Notes under the pieces: generated by a model
What the model was told of the DNA's origin: nothing
What the model saw: the letters and a program-made list of their open reading frames with translations, nothing else
Database searches by the model: none
In this document: positions 1 through 30,108 of the stretch, one piece after another
How positions within the stretch are numbered: the stretch's first letter is position 1
Layout of the letters: the number at the start of each line of letters is the position of its first letter
Translations under genes and position numbers: made by a program
Source of the DNA: Roseivirga sp.
Lineage (GTDB): Bacteria > Bacteroidota > Bacteroidia > Cytophagales > Cyclobacteriaceae
DNA: 64,000 bases
Direction: 5' to 3'
NCBI GenBank assembly: GCA_029262895.1
Contig: JAJCYM010000090.1
Coordinates: 1 to 64,000, forward strand

Positions 1-455
1 GCTTCGTCTATCGTTTCAAATTCTCTATGCTTCGCAGTTCTGAGTTTTCCTGTTATTGCTTCGACCGCTTCGCGAGACATCCCAATTTTTAACCCGAAAG
101 GCAAGTCCTGCCCACTGTCCTTAAAAAGCTCTTTATCATTAATATTGTATAGTCTCTTCAAGGCCACCGCCTGGCCAAAGGCTATACCAAGAACCTCCGT
201 GACGCCATTTACCTTGTTGTAATCATGATCATAAACCATCCCAAATCTAGGCAAAGCAACTCCGTAGTAACGGGAATCACTATCACGGCTCAACGCTACA
301 CCATCGTTTTCATCTGACCAGTCATTGATTACTTTGACCTTATATGATTTTCCAAGAGCTTCAAGATACTGGTTAGTCTGAGACCAACTCAATGGCCCTA
401 AAAGCATCAATAATACAATGATGGGTAACTTTAGATTGGTTTTCAGATTCACCAT
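1..455 (-). CDS. Secreted protein of unknown function, 3' end beyond the window
   Basis: The minus-strand frame opens with ATG at 455-453 and stays open for 151 codons to the window edge, so the C-terminus is missing. The first 25 residues are a basic start followed by a hydrophobic run ending in SWSQ, a plausible signal peptide cleaved after the Ser/Gln region. I do not recognise the family. The visible part contains a region of SRDSDSRYYGVALP type and later an acidic/basic C-terminal stretch. The upstream lipoprotein gene ends one base before this ATG (TGA-T-ATG), so the two are very probably co-transcribed and perhaps translationally coupled. It is inferred to be exported. Confidence 0.7.
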   Translation of the reverse strand, partial: MVNLKTNLKLPIIVLLMLLGPLSWSQTNQYLEALGKSYKVKVINDWSDENDGVALSRDSDSRYYGVALPRFGMVYDHDYNKVNGVTEVLGIAFGQAVALKRLYNINDKELFKDSGQDLPFGLKIGMSREAVEAITGKLRTAKHREFETIDE

Positions 456-456
456 A

Positions 457-1218
457 TCAGTCTTCACATTTGGGTTCATTCCCTTCAATTATTTCGGTAT
501 GATAGGCCACAGAATTTTGGAAAATAATGGCATACCTTTTTTGGTCTATGTTGACCAAATCGACATATCGGCTGGTGCCCTGAATTAGTCCGTTGCCAAC
601 GCCTGTTGTATTGAAGGCATCCAAAGTATATCCAGAACCTGAGTTAGAAGTAGCTACAGGGGTGGTTATAGTTCCATCCGGGCCACAAATAAAAACGTAG
701 GTCTCATCTACCGCTTGCCCCCGATCCATGCTTACAAAGAAGTCGCTATTAGTTCTAAAATCACCAAATGCCTGACTGAGGTTAAAAAATGCTGGTCTCC
801 TAAGGGCGAACTCTTGTATGAAATTTTCATGGCCAGCTATTCCGGAAATCTGCCATGTTGCAGCTTGCATTAATGGCGCAAGACTGCCTGGCTCGGCATC
901 AAGACTAAACACTTGTTCTGAAGAAGAACTAAGTGGTCTACCATTAATTGAGACAGTTCCAGAACTGATTTTATTGCCTCCGGGTTGATCAAATAAGACT
1001 GCCCGCACTGCCACTCTAAAGGTGTCGGCCGAAACACCGACTGCAGCATTGAGCCATTCCACAGAATGAATGAAGACTCCATCTACTTGGTCAACATTGA
1101 GTACGTATTGGAGCTCGGGGAAAGGATTATTTGGCTTAGCACATTTTTCAGTACAGCCGGTTGTTAAAATCATGCAACATGCCAAACCTAGCAACGCTAA
1201 TTGGATTCTGAGTTTCAT
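457..1218 (-). CDS. Lipoprotein of unknown function
   Basis: This 253-residue protein begins with a short hydrophobic signal segment and a lipobox (LTTGC, Cys22), so it is predicted to be a lipid-anchored envelope protein. After Cys22 it has a second Cys (TEKC) and a soluble domain rich in beta-type sequence; no enzyme motif is visible and I do not recognise the family. It is the first gene of a two-gene minus-strand unit with the exported protein that starts at 455. Its 5' region is shared with the divergent histidine kinase gene and holds the GGCAAATGCC dyad, so it may belong to the regulon of that kinase and its partner regulator; this is inference from position. Confidence 0.75.
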   Translation of the reverse strand: MKLRIQLALLGLACCMILTTGCTEKCAKPNNPFPELQYVLNVDQVDGVFIHSVEWLNAAVGVSADTFRVAVRAVLFDQPGGNKISSGTVSINGRPLSSSSEQVFSLDAEPGSLAPLMQAATWQISGIAGHENFIQEFALRRPAFFNLSQAFGDFRTNSDFFVSMDRGQAVDETYVFICGPDGTITTPVATSNSGSGYTLDAFNTTGVGNGLIQGTSRYVDLVNIDQKRYAIIFQNSVAYHTEIIEGNEPKCED

Positions 1219-21133: not shown

Positions 21134-22147
21134 TTAAAAAGTCTGCCTCAACTCAAAGGTCTTTCTCATCCGATCAATAAGTTTGTTTGACTCCTCAAAA
21201 TTCAAGGTCTGCTGTCCATCGGAATAGGCTTCTTCAGGCTTTTCATGGGTCTCATAAATTACGCCATCAGCCCCGGCCATAATGCTTGCCAAGGCAATGG
21301 GTTCTACATGATGTCTTATGCCGATGCCGTGCGAAGGGTCGGCAATCACAGGTAAGTGCGTTTTCTCCTTAAGTACCGGTATGGCATTCAGGTCCATGGT
21401 ATTTCTGGTAGCGTTCTCATACGTGCGAATGCCTCTTTCACAAAGTAGCAAACGCTCATTACCAGCACTAAAAACATACTCTGCTGAGTAAAGCAGCTCA
21501 TCGATAGTGCCTGAAATACCACGTTTGATCATCACTGGTTTGTCTGTATTCTTACCCAATTCATCCAATAGATTGAAGTTTTGGGTATTTCTGGCCCCTA
21601 CCTGATAAACGTCCACATAGGGATCCATCTCTGCAATCTGAGATACCTGCATCACTTCTGTCACTATTTTAATGCCCGCTTCTTTCGCTAGGTCATACCA
21701 CAACTTCAGACCGTCAATGCCCAAACCACGAAAAGAGTAAGGAGAACTTCTGGGCTTGTAGACACCTCCGCGCATAATACGAATGCCTTGTGCCTTGAGG
21801 TGATCAATAGTTTTTTTGATCTGCTCTTCGCCTTCAATAGAGCAGGGACCCGCCATGATTCTGAAACCACCTTCTTCAATTTTTACTCCGTCTCCCAGAT
21901 CTATGATCGTAGGTTTCACTTTCCATTTTCGAGAAACTAACTTATAATCATCAGAAACAATATGAATGTCTTTGATCCCTTCCATATGTCCAATGGAGCG
22001 GATGTCAAAGTCGTTTTTACCCGTTCCGATAAGGTAATCACCCTTTTGGGTTTTCACTTCAGTAGCCTTGTATTTCAAGTCCTTCACTTGCTTAAATATG
22101 GACTCCTTGTTGGCTTCGTTTATGTCTTTTTCTAGTTGTATAATCAT
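21134..22147 (-). CDS. aroF: 3-deoxy-7-phosphoheptulonate synthase (DAHP synthase, type I-beta)
   Basis: The 337-residue enzyme condenses phosphoenolpyruvate and erythrose 4-phosphate, the first step of the shikimate pathway. Residues 1-75 form the ferredoxin-like regulatory domain of Thermotoga-type DAHP synthases; the barrel has MAGPCSIEGEEQI, RGGVYKPRSSPYSFRG, DVYQVGARNTQN, KPVMIKRG, ICERGIRTYE-like LLCERGIRTYE, and DPSHGIGIRHHV. There is no chorismate mutase fusion. It is the last gene of the trp operon, 22 bases after trpA, so supply of precursor is tied to tryptophan demand through the attenuator at the operon front. The symbol aroF is used for this family generally. Confidence 0.95.
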   Translation of the reverse strand: MIIQLEKDINEANKESIFKQVKDLKYKATEVKTQKGDYLIGTGKNDFDIRSIGHMEGIKDIHIVSDDYKLVSRKWKVKPTIIDLGDGVKIEEGGFRIMAGPCSIEGEEQIKKTIDHLKAQGIRIMRGGVYKPRSSPYSFRGLGIDGLKLWYDLAKEAGIKIVTEVMQVSQIAEMDPYVDVYQVGARNTQNFNLLDELGKNTDKPVMIKRGISGTIDELLYSAEYVFSAGNERLLLCERGIRTYENATRNTMDLNAIPVLKEKTHLPVIADPSHGIGIRHHVEPIALASIMAGADGVIYETHEKPEEAYSDGQQTLNFEESNKLIDRMRKTFELRQTF

Positions 22148-22169: not shown

Positions 22170-22958
22170 CTACGAGCTTCGAGTTTCGCTTATTATTGAT
22201 GTGACAAACTGACCAATGCGGCCAGACAGATTTTGGCTTGTATTTATTGCTTTTATAAAAGCACTTCCGATAATGGCTCCGTTGGCATTTTGACAGGCCT
22301 TATCAAAGGTTTTAGCATTTGATATCCCAAAACCAATGAGGGTTGGGTTCTTTAAATTCATCTGCTTTACCCTTTCAAAGTAAGCTGACTGATCCTCTGA
22401 AATATCGGCCTTAGCACCTGTGGTACTTGTTGACGAAACCATATAGATAAACCCATTTGAATTGGCATCGATATCTCTGATTCTCACCTCTGAAGTCTGA
22501 GGAGTGATTAGAAAAATATTGTAGAGTCCATGCTTTTCGAAAAGTGGTTTGTACGTTTCCAAATACTCTTGCATTGGCAGATCCGGTAAAATAAGCCCGT
22601 CAATACCTATACTTTCACATTCCTGACAAAACCGTTCTACTCCAAATTGTATAATAGGGTTGATATAACCCATCATCACTATGGGTAGATCAACCTTTCT
22701 CCTGATATCTTTAAGCTGATCAAAAAGGACTTTCAAAGTCATTCCATTGGCGAGAGCGACTCCATTACTTTCCTGAATGGTAGGTCCATCAGCCACCGGA
22801 TCTGAAAAAGGAATGCCAATTTCAATCATATCTGCCCCTGATTTTTCCAGGTTTTCAATGATGCTGACGGTGTCATTCAGTTGAGGGTAACCCGCAGTAA
22901 AATACACATTAAGTATGCGTTCCCTTTTATTCTGAAATAGTTGATCTATTCTGTTCAT
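22170..22958 (-). CDS. trpA: Tryptophan synthase alpha chain
   Basis: The 262-residue protein cleaves indole-3-glycerol phosphate to indole and glyceraldehyde 3-phosphate and hands indole to TrpB. Catalytic Glu46 (MIEIGIPFSDP) and Asp57 (VADGPTIQ) keep the 11-residue spacing of the Salmonella enzyme. The frame continues upstream to 23057 but that part is the hairpin repeat, so ATG at 22958 is chosen (MNRIDQLFQNKRERILNVYF). The last few codons (SETRSS) run into a TCGAGTT-repeat rich spacer, so the C-terminus may be extended by repeat DNA. Three long hairpins separate it from trpB. Confidence 0.96.
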   Translation of the reverse strand: MNRIDQLFQNKRERILNVYFTAGYPQLNDTVSIIENLEKSGADMIEIGIPFSDPVADGPTIQESNGVALANGMTLKVLFDQLKDIRRKVDLPIVMMGYINPIIQFGVERFCQECESIGIDGLILPDLPMQEYLETYKPLFEKHGLYNIFLITPQTSEVRIRDIDANSNGFIYMVSSTSTTGAKADISEDQSAYFERVKQMNLKNPTLIGFGISNAKTFDKACQNANGAIIGSAFIKAINTSQNLSGRIGQFVTSIISETRSS

Positions 22959-22971
22959 TTTTTCTTCTGTT

Positions 22972-23017
22972 AGACCAGGCAGGTTTCTTGCCCCGTGGCA
23001 AGAAACCTGCCTGGTCT
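22972..23017. repeat. Intra-operon hairpin 1 (trpB-trpA)
   Basis: Arms at 22972-22992 and 22997-23017 pair perfectly over 21 bases around loop CCGT. The inner 10 bases (TTTCTTGCC/GGCAAGAAA) are the same as in hairpin 3, and the outer bases differ. It is preceded by TCTGTTAGA, a tag found before all three hairpins. Confidence 0.8.
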
Positions 23018-23046
23018 TGACTGCTAATTCATTTTTTCTGTTAACT

Positions 23047-23091
23047 AGGTTTGTCAACTTTTTGGCGTTGCGTCAAAAAGTTGACAAACCT
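23047..23091. repeat. Intra-operon hairpin 2 (trpB-trpA)
   Basis: Arms at 23047-23067 and 23071-23091 pair over 21 positions, with one G-T pair, around a TTG loop. The stem sequence (AGGTTTGTCAACTTTTTG) is different from hairpins 1 and 3, but the upstream tag TCTGTTA is shared. Confidence 0.8.
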
Positions 23092-23095
23092 CTGT

Positions 23096-23143
23096 TAGAT
23101 CAGACAGCTTTCTTGCCCCATGGCAAGAAAGCTGTCTGATCTA
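23096..23143. repeat. Intra-operon hairpin 3 (trpB-trpA)
   Basis: A perfect stem of 22 pairs (23096-23117 with 23122-23143) closes the loop CCAT. The inner part equals hairpin 1; the outer part (AGATCAGACAGC) differs by compensated changes on both arms. It ends 8 bases before the trpB stop codon region, with no T-run typical of a terminator. Confidence 0.8.
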
Positions 23144-23150
23144 TAATCTT

Positions 23151-24332
23151 CTAATACTTCCCCCATTGGATATAAGTATCCAGATCTTTGTCTCCTCTGC
23201 CGGAAAGGTTAATGACTACAACATCCTCAGTCTTAAATTCCAACTGATCCAAGGCGGCAAAAGCATGTGCAGATTCTATGGCCGGAATAATCCCTTCTAA
23301 CTTACTCAGGGCAATACCAGCTTCCATGGCCTCGTCATCAGTAGCACTTAGAAACCTGGCCCTGCCAGTCTCAAAGAGATGCGCATGCACCGGTCCGATT
23401 CCAGGATAATCAAGCCCTGCTGAGATGGAATAAGGCTCTACCACCTGGCCATCATCTGTCTGCATCAATATGGTTTTGCTGCCGTGAAGCACACCCGGCC
23501 TTCCCAAGGTGGTGGTGGCAGCGGATTGACCAGTATTATTCCCTTTGCCTGCCGCCTCCACAGCCACCAACTGCACCTCCTCCTGATCATAGTAATGGTA
23601 AAAAGCACCGGCCGCATTGCTCCCTCCTCCGACACAGGCAATCACATAGTCAGGATTCTCCCGGCCAATCTCAGATTGCAATTGTGATTTCATTTCCTTA
23701 CTGATCACCGATTGAAATCGGGCAACCATTTCCGGATAAGGATGTGGGCCCACCACAGAACCAATGATATAATGTGTATCGGTTGGATTATTAATCCAGT
23801 GCCTCATGGCTTCGTTAGTGGCATCTTTCAGGGTTCTGCTGCCACTCTTTGCCGGCCTGACTTCGGTGCCCAATATCCGCATGCGCTCTACATTTGGCTT
23901 TTGTCTGGCCATGTCCACCTCGCCCATATATACTATGCACTCTACTCCCATTAACGCGCAGACTGTTGCTGTGGCCACTCCGTGCTGTCCGGCTCCCGTC
24001 TCGGCAATTATCTTCTTTTTGCCCAGCCTTTGCGCCAGCAAAATCTGTCCGACAGTGTTATTCACTTTATGGGCTCCGGTATGACAAAGGTCTTCCCGCT
24101 TCAGGTATATTTTGGCACCATATTTTTCCGACAATCTATTAGCCAGGTACAGCGGAGTAGGTCTTCCAACATAATCCTTTAAAAGCCGGTTGAATTGCTT
24201 TTGAAATTCAGGTTCTGCAAGTATAGCCTCATAATTCTGTCGCAACTCTTCCACATTGGGGTATAGCATTTCAGGAATATATGCTCCTCCAAAATTTCCG
24301 TAATACCCTCTATCGTCAACTTTCACCTTCAT
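23151..24332 (-). CDS. trpB: Tryptophan synthase beta chain
   Basis: This 393-residue PLP enzyme joins indole and serine to make tryptophan. PLP Lys89 is in HTGAHKVNN, the phosphate loop is GGGSNAAG, and the KRED and ETGAGQHG segments are those of the TrpB1 type that complexes with TrpA. Length is typical. Its ATG overlaps the trpF stop by 4 bases. The three hairpins after its stop codon separate it from trpA, unusual because trpB and trpA normally overlap or abut for equal expression of the alpha2beta2 complex. Confidence 0.98.
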
Positions 24333-24946
24333 AGTAGTTCTCTAAGTCGTTTCAATTCTTCTATATCCTTCAGTCCAGGTTCTACTTCGAATCTGGAATT
24401 CACATCAATGGCATAAATGTTTATTCCCTTCATTGCCTTTAGGGCGCTAATGTCATTCGGGCTAATACCTCCACTTAAAAAGAAAGGCACCTTTTGATCA
24501 TAAGCCTGCAATAAGTTCCAATCAAACTTTCTCCCGGTTCCACCCTTTTGCTTTGATTTGGTATCGAAGAGGAAGAAATCTACGAAAGGGTGATAGGCCG
24601 ACAGGCTTCCAAAATCGAAATCTTCATCCACTCCAAATGCTTTGATGGTTTTGATGCCAAGAGCGAAAAGCTCTGCTACATACTCAGGTGTTTCTTCTCC
24701 GTGCAATTGAACATAGTCTAGGCCGAATTTTTGAACCTGTTTTAAGACCTCATTCAAATTTTTGTCTACAAATACGCCTACCTTTTTCGTAGTGGAAGGA
24801 AAGCGCATTAATTGTTTACAGTCTAATTGTGAACCTACAAACCTTGGCGATTTGTCATAAAAAATAAAGCCCAAATAGTCTGGATTGAGCTTTAGCGCTT
24901 GCTCAATATTAGCCTTATCCCGCATACCACAGACCTTTAGTCTCAT
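24329..24946 (-). CDS. trpF: Phosphoribosylanthranilate isomerase
   Basis: The 205-residue TIM barrel performs the Amadori rearrangement of phosphoribosylanthranilate to CdRP. Features are [14 protein letters not shown] (catalytic Cys6), [31 protein letters not shown] with the catalytic Asp, [12 protein letters not shown] and [16 protein letters not shown] (DxNSxxExxPGxKD signature). It is a free-standing monofunctional enzyme, not fused to TrpC as in E. coli. It overlaps trpB by 4 bases and begins 8 bases after trpC. Confidence 0.97.
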
Positions 24947-24954
24947 AACCCTGA

Positions 24955-25758
24955 TTAATTTTTGACCTCTAACCTCTTTAATAAATCCATGAATTTTGCG
25001 GCTGTCCTGTCTGGTCTGGCCGTCTTCATAAATGTCTCACCCATCAAAAACCCTCGAAAACCATAGGCTCTCAACTCAGCAATCGCCTCCGGATTGCTTA
25101 TTCCACTCTCAGATACTTTCAGGAATTTATCGGGGATCAGGCTGGCCAGAGACTTGGAGATTTCAATGTCTGTTTCAAAAGTCTTTAGGTTCCTGTTGTT
25201 CACCCCAACTACGTCAAGGTATTCATTCAGATTACCATTTAACTCTTCCTGATTATGCACTTCCATCAATACTTCGAGCCCGAGAGATTTGGCAAATTGA
25301 GCCAGACCTAACAACCTGGATGGTTCCAAAACTGAGGCTATCAACAATATCGCATCCGCCCCAATTGATTTAGCCTCAATAAGTTGATATTCATCAACTA
25401 TAAAGTCTTTGCGAAGAATTGGACAGAAATTGTATTTCCTGGCCGTTACCAAATCGCTGTTCTTCCCACCAAAAAACTCAGTATCGGTTAATATTGACAA
25501 AGCAGAAGCACCTGCCTGCATATAGCCAATGGTCGTTTTCTCAACATCAGCATGCTTATTGATCATACCTTTGGAAGGAGACTTCCTTTTGAACTCCGCA
25601 ATGATTCCGGTTTTATCTTCGCGCAGTAAGTACTTTTTCAGGGAAGCTGGTTTTCCTTCGAAATACACGCTTTGCTCCAAGAGTTTGGTCGGAAATAATT
25701 CCTTTCTTTCGGCTACTTCCTTCTTCTTATGGGCTATTATTTTTTCTAGTATATCCAT
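24955..25758 (-). CDS. trpC: Indole-3-glycerol phosphate synthase
   Basis: The enzyme closes CdRP to indole-3-glycerol phosphate with loss of CO2. ATG at 25758 is chosen (MDILEKIIAHKKKEVAERK); the open frame to 25782 adds bases from the hairpin repeat. Motifs are IIAEFKRKSPSKG with the catalytic Lys, ILTDTEFFGG, PILRKDFIVDEYQL, VVGVNNRNLKTFETD, VSESGI and GFLMGETFM. 267 residues, monofunctional. It is separated from trpD by a 70-base spacer filled by an imperfect hairpin. Confidence 0.97.
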   Translation of the reverse strand: MDILEKIIAHKKKEVAERKELFPTKLLEQSVYFEGKPASLKKYLLREDKTGIIAEFKRKSPSKGMINKHADVEKTTIGYMQAGASALSILTDTEFFGGKNSDLVTARKYNFCPILRKDFIVDEYQLIEAKSIGADAILLIASVLEPSRLLGLAQFAKSLGLEVLMEVHNQEELNGNLNEYLDVVGVNNRNLKTFETDIEISKSLASLIPDKFLKVSESGISNPEAIAELRAYGFRGFLMGETFMKTARPDRTAAKFMDLLKRLEVKN

Positions 25759-25762
25759 TCTT

Positions 25763-25825
25763 AGTCGATGGTCGATAGTCAATGGTCGATAGCCGCAATG
25801 GACTATTGACCATGGTCTATCGACT
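25763..25825. repeat. Intra-operon imperfect hairpin (trpD-trpC)
   Basis: Arms 25763-25787 and 25801-25825 pair at 20 or more of 25 positions, several as G-T pairs, with a 13-base loop. The left arm contains repeated GGTCGATAG units. It occupies almost the whole trpD-trpC spacer and extends into the optional N-terminal extension of TrpC. Confidence 0.65.
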
Positions 25826-25828
25826 GAT

Positions 25829-26815
25829 TTATAATTCCAATATCTTTTTAAATGCTCTTAAGGCTGCTCCTGATTTCAGGGACTCCCTGGCCCTTTCAAT
25901 GGCCTCTTGTATTTCATATCCTTTGCCACATTCCAATGCCAGTGCGGCATTGGCGATCACCACGTTATTTTGCTCGGTTGTGCCCTCTCCTTTCAGAATG
26001 CCTTCAAAAATTCGGGCTGCGTCCTCAACCGTATCACCACCAAAGATGCTTTCGGGCAAAATGGTCTTCATCCCTAGATCCTGAGGAGCTACTATTTGTT
26101 CAGATTGGTTGGAGAGTTTTTTAAACTTGCCTGTCAACGATACCTCGTCATAACCATCAAGTGCATGTAGAATTACAAAGTCCTTGTCTGCTTTTTGGTA
26201 GAGGTATCCGTAGAGTCGCGCCAGCTCCAAACTGAATACGCCAACCAGTTGTTTCTTCGGAAACGAAGGGTTCACCATCGGACCCAGCATATTAAAGAAG
26301 GTCTTCACACCAAGGTCTTTTCGAATCGGAGCTACATTTTTCATGGCAGGATGAAACAAGGGAGCATGCAAAAAACAAATGCCGCTTTCATCCAGGCTCT
26401 TTTTGAGTCTACCAATGTCATTGGTGAATTCATAACCAAAATGCGCCATTAGGTTGGAAGAGCCAGAAATTGATGAAACCCCATTGTTCCCGTGTTTGGC
26501 AACATTCTGACCAGCGCCCGCCACAATAAATGAGGCCAAAGTGGAAATATTGAATGTATTCTTCCCATCACCTCCTGTACCGCATAAATCTATGGCCTCG
26601 TATTCAGGTATATCCACAGGAACGCAAAGCTCTAGCATGGCATCTCTGAACCCTTCAAGCTCTTCCACAGTAATACTTCGCATCAGATATACTGTGAGAA
26701 AAGCTGCCACCTGGCTTTGGTTGTATTTGCCTTGCGCCAGATTGATCAAGATTTCCTTAGCCGTTTTCTTATCCAGCGATTTGTATTCTATCAGTTGATT
26801 TAGTATTGCTTTCAT
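25829..26815 (-). CDS. trpD: Anthranilate phosphoribosyltransferase
   Basis: The 328-residue enzyme transfers phosphoribose from PRPP to anthranilate. Motifs are CGTGGDGKNTFNIST (PRPP loop, GTGGD), KHGNNGVSS with the following SGSSNLMAHFG, and HDGxDE-like HALDGYDEVSLTG near residue 215. Length is typical. It is not fused to TrpG. Its ATG overlaps the trpG stop by 4 bases. A hairpin follows its stop codon before trpC. Confidence 0.97.
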   Translation of the reverse strand: MKAILNQLIEYKSLDKKTAKEILINLAQGKYNQSQVAAFLTVYLMRSITVEELEGFRDAMLELCVPVDIPEYEAIDLCGTGGDGKNTFNISTLASFIVAGAGQNVAKHGNNGVSSISGSSNLMAHFGYEFTNDIGRLKKSLDESGICFLHAPLFHPAMKNVAPIRKDLGVKTFFNMLGPMVNPSFPKKQLVGVFSLELARLYGYLYQKADKDFVILHALDGYDEVSLTGKFKKLSNQSEQIVAPQDLGMKTILPESIFGGDTVEDAARIFEGILKGEGTTEQNNVVIANAALALECGKGYEIQEAIERARESLKSGAALRAFKKILEL

Positions 26816-27381
26816 CCTTCGATCCAGTTTTTCAAAAGTTGATGACCATGTTCAGTCATGATCGATTCCGGGTGAAACTGCACACCTTTCACATCATATT
26901 GCTTGTGTGAGATGGCCATCACCTGACCCAGTTCATCTATGGCCGTTACATCCAGTTGTTCTCCCAAGGCGTTGGGATCAATGCCCCACGAATGATAATG
27001 GCAGATGTCGTATTCAGTAGGCAAGCCCTTAAACAAACGGTCGTTGGCACTCACTTTCAGTCTTCCGGAAACTCCATGCAATACAGTCTCCATATTATAA
27101 ATCCTGGCTCCGTATGCTTCTGCGATAGCTTGATGTCCGAGGCACACGCCAAGGATTCTCTTTGACTGCCCATATCGTTCAATTAACTGGGCCATTATTC
27201 CGGCCTCCTTGGGGATTCCGGGCCCGGGCGATAGCAGAATGGCATCATAGGAATCAGTCTCCTCTGAAGAAATCGCATCATTTCTATGTACATCCATCCT
27301 ATCTCCATAACCTAGCTCTCTGATATAATGCACCAGGTTGTAGGTAAACGAATCGTAATTATCGAGCACTAGTATTTTCAT
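26812..27381 (-). CDS. trpG: Anthranilate synthase component II (glutamine amidotransferase)
   Basis: This 189-residue class I amidotransferase supplies ammonia from glutamine to TrpE. The catalytic triad is visible: Cys80 in LGVCLGHQAIAEAYG, His170 and Glu172 in GVQFHPESIMTEHG; the oxyanion segment is LLSPGPGIPKEAG. It overlaps both trpE and trpD by 4 bases, so TrpE, TrpG and TrpD are translationally coupled. In some bacteria this subunit also serves PabB; a pabB is not in the window. Confidence 0.97.
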   Translation of the reverse strand: MKILVLDNYDSFTYNLVHYIRELGYGDRMDVHRNDAISSEETDSYDAILLSPGPGIPKEAGIMAQLIERYGQSKRILGVCLGHQAIAEAYGARIYNMETVLHGVSGRLKVSANDRLFKGLPTEYDICHYHSWGIDPNALGEQLDVTAIDELGQVMAISHKQYDVKGVQFHPESIMTEHGHQLLKNWIEG

Positions 27382-28787
27382 CTTATCTCCTCCGCCCTCC
27401 TGATCGCCTGACGTAAAGCCGCCAGTTTATTATTCACTTCTTCCAACTCCGATTCCTTTTGACTCTTAGCCACAACTCCTGCTCCGGCCTGATAAAACAA
27501 AGTATTGTCCTTACTTAAAAAAGATCTGATCACTATGGCGTGATTGAAATCCCCATTAAAGCCCATAAAGCCAATTGCTCCTCCGTAGAACCCTCTCCTT
27601 GTCGATTCATATTCATTGATCAATTGCATGGCCCGAACCTTGGGTGCTCCTGATAAGGTGCCGGCTGGGAATGTCCCTGCAATCATGGATGTTGATTTCA
27701 TGCCCTCCTGCAATGTGCCGGTAACTTGAGATACCAAATGGATTACATGGGAGAAATACTGTACCTCTTTGTAAGTCTCTACCTTCACATCTGTGCCTGC
27801 ACGGCTCAGGTCATTTCTGGCCAAATCCACTAACATCACATGTTCCGAATTCTCCTTTGGATCGTCCAACAGTTTTTTTGCCAGATCAGCATCGGCTTCA
27901 TCATTACCGGTCCTTTTAAAGGTTCCTGCAATCGGATGAATTGTGGCCTTGTCTTCTTTTATAACCAATTGAGCTTCTGGTGAAGACCCAAAAATCTTGA
28001 AGCTACCGTAGTCAAAATAAAAGAGATAGGGAGATGGATTAACTGATCTTAAAGACCTGTAAACATTAAATTCATCCCCGCTAAAACCCTGCTGAAATCT
28101 CCTTGACAATACCATCTGAAAGACATCTCCTCTATGGCAGTGGTCAATACCTTTTTGAATCATTTCAAGAAATTGATCATCCATATAGTTGGACTCTTCC
28201 GCCTGGGAAGTATGGAATTCATAAGAAGGGTAATTCTTATTGTTGACAAGGTTCACCAAGGATTCAAGGCCTTTTGACTCCTCTCCTTCAGGGCAATGTT
28301 CAAAAATATATAGCTCGTTTTTGAAATGATCTATGGCAATCACATAGCGATAAACATGATACAGAATATCTGGAATATCGTATTCATTGTTCTTACCTGC
28401 CGAAACCGGAATAGATTCAAAATATTGAACTGCATCATAGCCTATATAACCAAAAATGCCATTATTAATAAACTTATGGTCATGAGGAGCAGGTTCAAAA
28501 TAAGCGGCAAAAGCTTCTAGCTTCTCAATAACTTCTCTTCCTTCTACATACTTTTCCTCAGCATCCCGCCCAGGCAGTTGCTGCTTAAATCTGCCTTCCA
28601 TCACTTCAAATGAAGCAATAGGGTCACAGCAGATATAGGAAAAGCTATTTTCACTACCATGATAGTCCGAGCTCTCAAGCAAAAGTGGATGCTGAAACTT
28701 ATCTCTGAGTTTCAGGTAGATACTCACAGGCGTTACTGTGTCAGCCAGTAGCTTGGTGTAAGTTGTATTTAGTTTTATCCTTGACAT
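27378..28787 (-). CDS. trpE: Anthranilate synthase component I
   Basis: TrpE converts chorismate to anthranilate with ammonia from TrpG. The frame opens at 28817, but that ATG touches the T-run of the attenuator, whereas ATG 28787 (MSRIKLNTTYTKLL) fits the family N-terminus and follows a purine-rich AGAAGAGAAG; 469 residues. The tryptophan feedback motif LLLESSDYHG is present, and the chorismate-binding half has DVFQMVLSRRF, SPSPYLFYFDYG-like NPSPYLFYFDYG, PIAGTFKRT, HVMLVDLARNDLSR, GTLSGAPKVRAMQLI and YGGAIGFMG. It overlaps trpG by 4 bases. Expression is expected to be set by the leader peptide and terminator directly upstream. Confidence 0.97.
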   Translation of the reverse strand: MSRIKLNTTYTKLLADTVTPVSIYLKLRDKFQHPLLLESSDYHGSENSFSYICCDPIASFEVMEGRFKQQLPGRDAEEKYVEGREVIEKLEAFAAYFEPAPHDHKFINNGIFGYIGYDAVQYFESIPVSAGKNNEYDIPDILYHVYRYVIAIDHFKNELYIFEHCPEGEESKGLESLVNLVNNKNYPSYEFHTSQAEESNYMDDQFLEMIQKGIDHCHRGDVFQMVLSRRFQQGFSGDEFNVYRSLRSVNPSPYLFYFDYGSFKIFGSSPEAQLVIKEDKATIHPIAGTFKRTGNDEADADLAKKLLDDPKENSEHVMLVDLARNDLSRAGTDVKVETYKEVQYFSHVIHLVSQVTGTLQEGMKSTSMIAGTFPAGTLSGAPKVRAMQLINEYESTRRGFYGGAIGFMGFNGDFNHAIVIRSFLSKDNTLFYQAGAGVVAKSQKESELEEVNNKLAALRQAIRRAEEIR

Positions 28788-28817
28788 TTCATTCTTCTCT
28801 TCTGAAAATTTGGACAT

Positions 28818-28847
28818 AAAAAAAGCCCGCAGGAACTGCGGGCTTTT
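28818..28847 (-). terminator. trp attenuator terminator
   Basis: On the minus strand AAAAGCCCGCAG-TTC-CTGCGGGCTTTTTTT forms a 12-pair stem with a 3-base loop followed by seven T, a strong intrinsic terminator. It lies after the leader peptide and ends at base 28818, directly before the open frame of trpE, so it must be read through for the operon to be expressed. The leader segment GGAACT (28896-28901) is complementary to AGTTCC across the terminator apex (28832-28837) and could act in an alternative fold. Confidence 0.85.
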
Positions 28848-28884
28848 GATTGTCTATATGTTGACTTTACAAATTGCTTTTGTT

Positions 28885-28909
28885 CACGTTATCGGAGTTC
28901 CGTTACGTG
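28885..28909 (-). promoter_or_regulatory. Leader hairpin overlapping the trpL stop codon
   Basis: On the minus strand CACGT...CGG-AACT-CCG...ACGTG folds into a stem of 5 plus 3 pairs with an internal loop. It starts one codon after the three Trp codons and includes the stop codon, the position of the 1:2 pause hairpin in classical trp leaders. A ribosome stalled at the Trp codons would prevent it from forming. Confidence 0.5.
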
Positions 28910-28945
28910 CCACCACCAAGCATTATGTGAAGTATAGTTTCTCAT
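28889..28945 (-). CDS. trpL: trp operon leader peptide, 18 residues with WWW
   Basis: Between the promoter and the terminator before trpE the minus strand encodes MRNYTSHNAWWWHVTELR and a TAA stop. Three consecutive Trp codons (TGG TGG TGG, 10-12) in an 18-codon frame are the hallmark of a ribosome-mediated attenuation leader: when charged tRNA-Trp is scarce, stalling at these codons changes the downstream RNA fold and lets transcription enter trpE. The ATG is only 8 bases after the -7 promoter element, so the transcript is nearly leaderless. Position, Trp content, hairpin and terminator agree; function is inferred from them. Confidence 0.85.
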   Translation of the reverse strand: MRNYTSHNAWWWHVTELR

Positions 28946-28953
28946 TGTTGCTT

Positions 28954-28984
28954 CAAATGTATAAAAGGAAATTTTTAAAGCAAA
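28954..28984 (-). promoter_or_regulatory. trp operon promoter, Bacteroidota type
   Basis: On the minus strand TTTG (28984-28981), 19 bases, then TACATTTG (28961-28954) match the TTTG / TAnnTTTG pattern of the primary sigma factor of Bacteroidota with standard spacing. Transcription would start within a few bases of the trpL ATG. Confidence 0.65.
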
Positions 28985-29115
28985 TGGAAAATCAAAAATT
29001 CAGTCAGAATAAATTTGTTTATGGACAGTTGGGTGACCGTTTTGCCGCTTCCATCAACAAGGGCGAGGAGCCAAAGAACAGTTAGCCAGATAAATTTCTT
29101 GAATTTGAGCCCGAA

Positions 29116-30108
29116 CTATTTTAGTCGTTTAAGAATCATTTTTGCCTCTGTATCATTGGCATTGCGGGCTATGATTTGCTCATAGATTTCTACCGCCTTA
29201 TTCTTCTCTCCCAGAAAGGCATGTGCTTTTGCCTTGTCTTTGTACAGACCAGCATTCTTTGGAAATTTTTCAATAGCCATTTCTAAAAAAGCAATTGCCT
29301 CTTTAAAATGATATTTCTGTATCAGCCTCTTCGCTGTTAGCCCTTCAATAAAAGAATTCATTTCTATTCCAGAGGTCACCTCCTCAAACTTCGCCTTTCC
29401 GTCATCAGCCCCATTTTTCACATAGGCATTTACAACTTCGTTCATAGAGGCAGAAATCTCCCCTGATCCCCATTTGAAGGTATTGGGTTGTTGAGCCACC
29501 ATGGCGAAGCTAATTTTCACTTCTTCTGAGAGGACTTTCTCACCCCATCTTCCACCGTGTACATCAAAATCATTTCGATCTATCGTGATTTCACCTTTGA
29601 AGCCAATAACAAGGTTACTCCAAAAAGGATCTATGAATCTCTTTTGGGTTTGTTCAAAGGGTACACGCACCTCTTTCGTTTTGCCCTTTATGGTTAAGTC
29701 ACCAATGGCAAACATCTTTTTTCCTTTTTTCTCAATGCTCTTGCTCTCGAATGTTAGGAATCGGTGATTTTCTGTATCGAAGAAGTTGCCAGTTTTTAAA
29801 TCTTTATCACGAAATGAGCTACCTGTATTGATGGAATTTGCGTCAATAATTAAGGATATTGCTGTTTTTGTCAGGTCTTTTTCATTGTACAGAATTGTGC
29901 CGGAATACTGACCGAATGTGCCTTCTACATCACTGAAACCAAAGAAACCAATGGCAAAGGACAGTTTGCTATGGGCTTTGTCAATCCCAAAAACTTCAAC
30001 ATCCAATCCTGGAATATGTTTGACCTCATTCGGCCAGAAAGTTGGGTCTTGTGCTTTGGAAATAAAGAATGTGCTCAGTAAAAGTGTTGTCAGTATCAGG
30101 CGTTTCAT
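29116..30108 (-). CDS. Secreted YceI-like protein with C-terminal TPR
   Basis: The 330-residue protein has a signal peptide (1-19), then a YceI lipocalin-like domain (about 35-205: DKAHSKLSFAIGFFGFSDVEGTFG, NSINTGSSFRDKDLKTGNFFDTENHRFLTFES, KSEV-like IDRNDFDVHGGRWGEKVLSEEVKI). YceI folds bind long isoprenoid lipids. Residues about 245-330 form tetratricopeptide-type helices (AIAFLEMAIEKFPKNAGLYKDKAKAHAFLGEKNKAVEIYEQII). The combination suggests a periplasmic protein with a partner-binding tail; the role is not known. It is a single gene preceding the trp operon on the same strand, followed by the LytTR regulator upstream. Confidence 0.9.
   Translation of the reverse strand: MKRLILTTLLLSTFFISKAQDPTFWPNEVKHIPGLDVEVFGIDKAHSKLSFAIGFFGFSDVEGTFGQYSGTILYNEKDLTKTAISLIIDANSINTGSSFRDKDLKTGNFFDTENHRFLTFESKSIEKKGKKMFAIGDLTIKGKTKEVRVPFEQTQKRFIDPFWSNLVIGFKGEITIDRNDFDVHGGRWGEKVLSEEVKISFAMVAQQPNTFKWGSGEISASMNEVVNAYVKNGADDGKAKFEEVTSGIEMNSFIEGLTAKRLIQKYHFKEAIAFLEMAIEKFPKNAGLYKDKAKAHAFLGEKNKAVEIYEQIIARNANDTEAKMILKRLK

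Follow-up and report, generated by a model that had tools for sequence, protein, structure and literature searches.

The trp attenuator of enterobacteria employs mutually exclusive II:III and III:IV hairpins (PMC1183508). In Bacteroidota, the Bacteroid-trp RNA (RF01692) was listed by Weinberg et al. in 2010 as a probable cis-regulatory RNA (PMC2864571; also PMC6414381), and Rfam describes the family as "Bacteroidete tryptophan peptide leader RNA." Comparative surveys by Lopatovskaya and others (cited in PMC4833913) and by Vitreschak and others (cited in PMC2864571) are also on record. Two further trp leaders, S. meliloti trpL (PMC7298713) and S. lividans trpL1 (MFAHSTRNWWWTAHPAAH; PMC8079986), are reported to be leaderless. 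In F. psychrophilum, the sigma-A -7 box TAnnTTTG is reported to span -12 to -5, leaderless mRNAs account for 5.5% of those with mapped starts, and there are clues for leader-peptide attenuation ahead of amino-acid operons (PMC9723704). A search of the open-licence literature found no description of the switch in the Bacteroidota trp leader, and it may be described elsewhere.

The window analyzed here is a stretch of 64,000 nucleotides from a contig of Roseivirga sp., and an original prediction had read a complete trp attenuator on its minus strand. Direct reading and translation found the promoter, the leader frame with three consecutive Trp codons, the hairpin overlapping the stop codon, and the terminator with its T run in place, coordinates included (Table 1). 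The interpretation as a trp attenuator is supported as well, since this anatomy before trpE is conserved in relatives (WWW frame and terminator at 18 of 18 genus loci). On the sequence evidence, the element is very probably a ribosome-mediated transcription attenuator of the trp operon, proposed to act through a loop-centred antiterminator, a reading to which we give a probability of roughly 0.83 and under which the operon would respond to tryptophan.

Table 1. Features of the trp leader and operon in the window
Feature	Position	Strand	Basis
Bacteroidota-type promoter: TTTG 28984-28981, 19-nt spacer, TACATTTG 28961-28954	28954..28984	minus	sequence read directly; kept in genus
Predicted 5' UTR, ~4 nt	28946..28949	minus	position of -7 box and spacing
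Leader peptide frame MRNYTSHNAWWWHVTELR, 18 codons; ATG 28945-28943, TAA 28891-28889	28889..28945	minus	read and translated
Three Trp codons in the leader MRNYTSHNAWWWHVTELR	28918-28910	minus	sequence
P1 hairpin, 28909-28900 with 28895-28885; encloses leader stop, overlaps B1	28885..28909	minus	folding and genus alignment
Candidate antiterminator segment B1 (CGUGAACA), pairs with terminator apex 28837-28830	28881..28888	minus	counterparts in relatives
Candidate of the original prediction, GGAACU, top of P1 stem and loop, pairs with 28837-28832	28896..28901	minus	sequence
Possible second antiterminator segment B2, GC 28877-28876 and UUUG 28873-28870; pairs with 28848-28842 (base of terminator 5' arm)	28870..28877	minus	masked folds with first or second Trp codon (W1 or W2) in A site; modest comparative support
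Intrinsic terminator, 12 pairs, 3-nt loop UUC; stem 28847-28821, T run 28824-28818	28818..28847	minus	terminator scan and conservation
trpE, start by homology at 28787 (ORF reaches ATG 28817)	27378..28787	minus	homology
trpG, trpD, trpC, trpF, trpB, trpA, in tight order	22170..27381	minus	gene calls
DAHP synthase (3-deoxy-7-phosphoheptulonate synthase), end of gene run	21134..22147	minus	NF006421, 393.0 bits, cut-off 335

The leader RNA folds at -39.3 kcal/mol compared to -23.8 +/- 3.3 kcal/mol in dinucleotide shuffles (z -4.7), a value reached by none of 200 shuffles. The gene upstream of the leader (29116-30108, minus strand) resembles a YceI family protein in its first part and TPR-type repeats in its second part. 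The -7 box and the leader ATG are separated by 8 nt. Among the 18 genus loci, this box is TAnnTTTG in 16 and TACATTAG in 2, lies 5-8 nt ahead of an in-frame start in all 18, and is preceded 19 nt upstream by TTTG in 17. The arrangement extends beyond the genus: of 101 representative leaders, 39 show TAnnTTTG at a distance of 4-9 nt from a downstream in-frame start, compared to a mean of 0.9 and a maximum of 3 in 100 shuffles. On the F. psychrophilum placement of the box (-12 to -5), a 4-nt gap would put the first transcribed base at the ATG itself. The suggestion in the original prediction that the transcript is nearly leaderless is therefore supported as a sequence pattern, from which the start site is predicted. 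That prediction had also placed the terminator directly before trpE, which holds for ATG 28817 and not for the start that aligns with relatives, ATG 28787-28785 at residue 11 of the ORF. Forty-two of 52 matches begin at residue 8-18, and the ATG adjoining the T run, 10 residues further upstream (28788-28817), is probably not the true start of trpE. The homology start leaves about 30 nt between the T run and trpE.

Conservation was examined first within the genus. trpE is present in 18 of the 19 genus genomes searched (Roseivirga or near, order Cytophagales in the NCBI taxonomy), and the trpE of Roseivirga thermotolerans (L123) is 77% identical to that of the window. Conservation of the WWW frame, which the original prediction had named as a test, was seen at 18 of 18 genus trpE loci, mostly as WWWHVTE, and the terminator likewise at 18 of 18. 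P1 and the terminator covary in the genus alignment, with four pairs changed on both sides (reached in 2 of 500 shuffles) and 14 cells (0 of 500). A plasmid search using the leader gave no match.

For the wider comparison, 59 relative genomes were searched, which yielded 52 trpE loci for reading. Of these order-level loci, 44 carry a short frame containing a Trp run, and 8 have no accepted leader. At L027, L032, L033, L039, L044, L046, and L052, no Trp-run leader lies within 500 nt; L039 retains a terminator-like hairpin. A phylum search added 29 loci besides the window's own, of which two (L068 and L069) repeat genomes G035 and G048 and the remaining 27 all carry a leader. Twenty further loci were added. 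Three belong to the class, and each has a leader; the other 17 were chosen by hand among 96 from other classes. Of these 17, L095 and L099 were set aside for want of a trpE match in the stretch, and 11 of the remaining 15 have a leader. Duplicates (L053, L068, and L069), L047, in which the frame was judged to lie within the upstream gene, and L097, in which no terminator was found, were left out of the counts. L004 and L019 were clipped stretches completed from their own loci, and L048 was counted twice. The latter (genome G029, 376-644, plus strand) carries two tandem trp attenuators before a single trpE, each with its own WWW leader and terminator.

A second set was drawn from at least 80 named loci. 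Among the matches listed, a Trp-run leader was found at 75 of 80; five loci without a leader, two without a terminator, and one duplicate were removed, and the 72 kept form 43 units by genus label or MAG, of which some genera may overlap with those of the first set. The distance from the Trp run to the start of the terminator is 46-96 nt in 85 of 85 first-set leaders and, among the matches listed, 48-80 nt in 71 of 72 second-set leaders, the exception being L130.

The pairing that could connect the leader to the terminator was measured as follows. For each leader, the short frame with the Trp run and the best terminator were picked independently, and the region downstream of the Trp codons was paired with the terminator to find the strongest contiguous helix, scored with Turner-type stacking energies. 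Contiguous helices were used because duplex folding with bulges blurred the signal (the window ranked 58 and 60 of 85). The control consisted of partners swapped between genera in 20,000 permutations. In wide windows, own partners paired better than swapped partners over the 58 units of the first set (z -8.0, 0/20000) and over the 28 units of the window's order (z -3.6, 4/20000). With the region corresponding to B1 (9-32 nt after the Trp run) against the terminator apex, windows chosen after the first set had been viewed, z was -7.3 (58 units), -7.5 (49 units of the class), and -5.4 (28 units of the order), each at 0/20000. The same windows, which were fixed beforehand only for this repeat, gave z -8.4 (0/20000) in the 43 second-set units (listed loci), in which three controls were null: 23 nt upstream against the apex, B2 against the apex, and B1 against the base of the stem.

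Addition of the top of the 3' arm to the target strengthened the signal (z -12.2 and -9.1). In sliding maps of all 101 units, which like the loop-centred target were defined after both sets had been viewed, the signal peaked with z -15.7 and -16.1 for the segment 12-31 nt downstream of the Trp run and with z -14.9 for the loop centre of the terminator, and windows starting upstream of the end of the Trp run stayed within |z| 1.6. A dinucleotide-shuffle control gave 0/300 for all units, for the order, for the rest of the class, and for the other classes. Helices of -9 kcal/mol or below are present in 91 of 101 units and missing in 10. In these 91 helices, the pairing segment starts a median of 19 nt after the last Trp codon (IQR 18-20), near the stop codon; at least six pairs are formed in 78 of 101 helices and at least three loop bases are used in 75 of 101. 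Helix start positions alone scarcely separate own from swapped pairs, as the segment is conserved. Several of the best helices reach 10-11 bp with sequences that differ between genera (L022, L036, L043, L146, and L048b), which points to compensatory change. Compensatory examples are GCGCGAACGG:CTGTTCGCGC in L022, AGTTCAGC:GCTGAACT in L028, GAGAGATTAG:CTGATCTCTC in L048b, and TTGTGAACAGC:GCTGTTCACAG in L043. These comparisons with relatives suggest that the operon is turned on through a grip on the apex of the terminator hairpin, where the textbook version takes its side.

The position of the peak distinguishes groups of leaders. In the window's order (28 units), it lies at the loop centre, with z -8.1 at -1, -6.9 at +2, and -0.5 at -10. 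The 22 Flavobacteriales-type leaders, which were picked by hand, show their best energy at +2, on the loop and the uppermost part of the 3' arm, and a low z of -2.8 that is probably due to their mutual resemblance. In contrast, the peak of nine trp units from other classes lies on the classical 5' arm, at -10 to -7 (z -3.7, -3.5); against this trend, L086 and L087 look like loop plus 3' arm. Long classical antiterminators, with 10-13 bp on the terminator 5' arm, are seen at L089, L091-L093, L096, and L098 of other classes. B1 against the base of the stem reached 2/20000 over all 58 units because other-class units use the 5' arm; it was weak in the class (893/20000) and disappeared in the second set.

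His leaders of the same class provide a further comparison. Forty-nine hisG loci were fetched and 33 examined, of which 19 have a short frame rich in His codons, with a terminator as well in 15. In 14 such units, the pairing 3-34 nt after the last His codon peaks 6 nt before the loop centre (z -3.7, 1/5000), and the loop-centred geometry was not found (z -1.6 at the loop centre, -0.1 for loop plus 3' arm); the apex window, into which part of the 5' arm falls, nevertheless gave 42/5000. The 5'-arm peaks of the other-class trp and his leaders indicate that the method is able to detect the classical geometry; in the window's order and class, the peak lies at the loop centre instead. The suspicion in the original prediction that the switching fold may be unusual is borne out. 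The loop-centred geometry looks particular to the trp leaders of this class.

A second segment, B2, looked attractive by eye as a partner for the base of the 5' arm. Permutation support was modest, at 94/20000 for 58 units, 77/20000 for 49 units, and 22/20000 in the second set (listed loci), and at 1100/20000 it was not convincing in the order.

In the mechanism that we propose, transcription would begin a few bases ahead of the leader ATG. When charged tRNA-Trp is ample, the ribosome would reach the stop codon and cover B1, so that the terminator forms and the polymerase halts before trpE. When tryptophan is scarce, the ribosome would stall on the Trp codons, cover the 5' arm of P1, and open this hairpin, leaving B1 free. 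The free B1 would then catch the apical loop and adjoining stem bases of the emerging terminator, the hairpin would not be finished in time, and trpEGDCFBA would be transcribed. If no ribosome is present, P1 and the surrounding rod would hide B1 and termination would be the default. The pairing in this class would be centred on the terminator loop rather than on the 5' arm.

The positions of the helices agree with this order of events. Given an assumed ribosome footprint of -12 to +15 around the P site, 87 of 91 strong helices are free when the last Trp codon is in the A site. When the stop codon is there instead, 72 of 91 are covered over half their length or more, and 19 of 91 are not. Antitermination during tryptophan shortage needs this order of states. 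When the window was folded only as far as the terminator loop, the apex paired upstream with a probability of 0.14 with no ribosome, 0.61, 0.63, and 0.56 with W1, W2, and W3 in the A site, respectively, and 0.03 with the ribosome at the stop codon. Over nine leaders, apex pairing ranges from 0.06 to 0.65 with no ribosome, from 0.33 to 0.93 when stalled, and from 0.00 to 0.45 at the stop codon, so the contrast is not clean in all of them, and L037 shows no gain from no ribosome to stalled. Thermodynamic folding alone was set aside as proof of the switch: once the full terminator is transcribed, it dominates every masked fold of the nine leaders (0.91-1.00), which implies that the choice would have to be kinetic.

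We consider it somewhat probable that the trp attenuators of class Bacteroidia, the window's included, share one design, in which the pairing segment, 12-31 nt downstream of the Trp codons, takes hold of the terminator at its apical loop and shoulders and keeps it from nucleating. This would replace the 5'-arm helix that his leaders of the class and, as a group, the trp leaders of other classes retain. Together with near-leaderless initiation, this would be a compact and distinct arrangement.

The window's own copy of the helix is weak, with a U.C mismatch and an A.A mismatch at its end, and its best contiguous helix is only 5 bp. The window has the loop UUCC instead of UUCA; this creates the U.C mismatch in the B1 helix and leaves the GGAACU helix as the longest contiguous one. 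Within the genus alone (18 loci), pairing is not stronger than in shuffles (z -0.8, 63/300) and the B1 helix shows no covariation. The six-base pairing of 28901-28896 with 28837-28832, the only candidate named by the original prediction, exists as described. It is possible, although we regard it as rather unlikely, that the attenuator is the same and that GGAACU, paired with AGUUCC and acting alone or in exchange with B1, is the antiterminator here. In the window and L011, the two members of the genus whose loop has UUCC, GGAACU forms the best contiguous helix, and 85.9% of its genus cells are paired, compared to 94.1% for B1. Two cells are changed on both sides, which 163 of 500 shuffles reach and which is no covariation.

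The masked folds bear on both candidates. With W3 in the A site, the window fold pairs AACU (28899-28896) with the apex; the ribosome at this codon covers only the GG of GGAACU, so that AACU could still pair. With W1 or W2 in the A site, the folds use GAAC 28885-28882, which pairs with GUUC 28836-28833, and not GGAACU, and GC and UUUG (28877-28870) join the base of the 5' arm. Furthermore, GGAACU lies 9-14 nt after the Trp run, whereas the pairing segment of other genera, at a median of 19 nt, corresponds to window positions 28888-28881 and not to the P1 loop.

An improbable alternative is that the loop-centred helix stabilizes or times the terminator, through a kissing or pseudoknot contact, instead of blocking it. 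In the Flavobacteriales-type leaders, most of the helix falls on the loop and the upper 3' arm, and only 0-2 bases of the 5' arm take part, so the lower stem need not open, and the full-length fold always retains the terminator. However, a segment that is free at the stall and covered at the stop codon in the proportions given above is the opposite of what an aid to termination would need when tryptophan is plentiful, and many helices take 2-6 stem bases. Control at the level of translation, in which the rod around the leader would govern entry to trpE and the hairpin would be no terminator in vivo, is very improbable: the ATG chosen by the ORF finder adjoins the T run, but the homology start lies 30 nt downstream of it, the terminator ends as far as 189 nt ahead of the trpE match at other loci, and the T run and terminator stem are conserved. 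A chance Trp run beside an ordinary terminator of the upstream gene, which is on the same strand and has no other minus-strand terminator in a scan of 28000-29500, is refuted by the conserved frame, the spacing between Trp run and terminator, and the partner-specific pairing.

The loop-centred antiterminator has several implications. First, in 91 of 101 units, the comparative map pins the switch helix down to a few bases, and it predicts the positions to mutate. Second, if the reading is true, there would be a second working geometry for ribosome-mediated attenuation, and the system would test whether blocking a hairpin at its loop suffices for antitermination. Third, the sequence rule would extend annotation to leaders that Rfam misses.

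Compared to the Bacteroid-trp RNA, the window element is found in the same phylum and before the same gene, and it likewise has a Trp-codon leader inside a long rod ahead of Bacteroidota trp genes. The RF01692 model gave no match up to E 10 in 28500-29300 of the window and none in L001, and nothing in Rfam scored above its cut-off in the window stretch. The model matched one of 59 relatives (G051) and 0 of 19 genus genomes, in searches whose filters lose weak matches, as well as 4 of 20 chosen sources, all Flavobacteriales-type leaders (L149, L191, L195, and L200), so that 16 of 20 were missed. It covers the rod and in one displayed match ends inside the 5' arm of the terminator, and therefore includes neither the whole terminator nor the switch helix.

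Compared to the enterobacterial attenuator (Trp_leader, RF00513), which scored 31.4 bits in the window, below the gathering cut-off of 41, the element shares the mechanism, as proposed, and the Trp codons. Two features differ: the window leader starts about 4 nt from the predicted transcript start, and the switch helix of the relatives is centred on the terminator loop. The his attenuators of the class also combine a leader peptide with a terminator and are present in the same genome. Before hisG (L120, about 2276-2161, minus strand, contig G000:C66) lie TATATTTG, 7 nt, MIELINTYYPGNAHHVHHFHHLS, and a short terminator-like hairpin, CTGGCGATAAGCCAG, with a T run, so that in this genome two amino-acid leaders start near a -7 box. 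S. meliloti trpL and S. lividans trpL1 likewise have a short Trp-codon leader, transcribed from the start codon itself or from a base adjoining it; they belong to other phyla, and their start sites are reported, whereas that of the window is predicted. Collectively, these comparisons place the element in a known kind, ribosome-mediated attenuation, which in this phylum already bears the name Bacteroid-trp RNA, and point to the loop-centred switching helix as the new part, with comparative support that is strong across the class and weak in the window's own copy.
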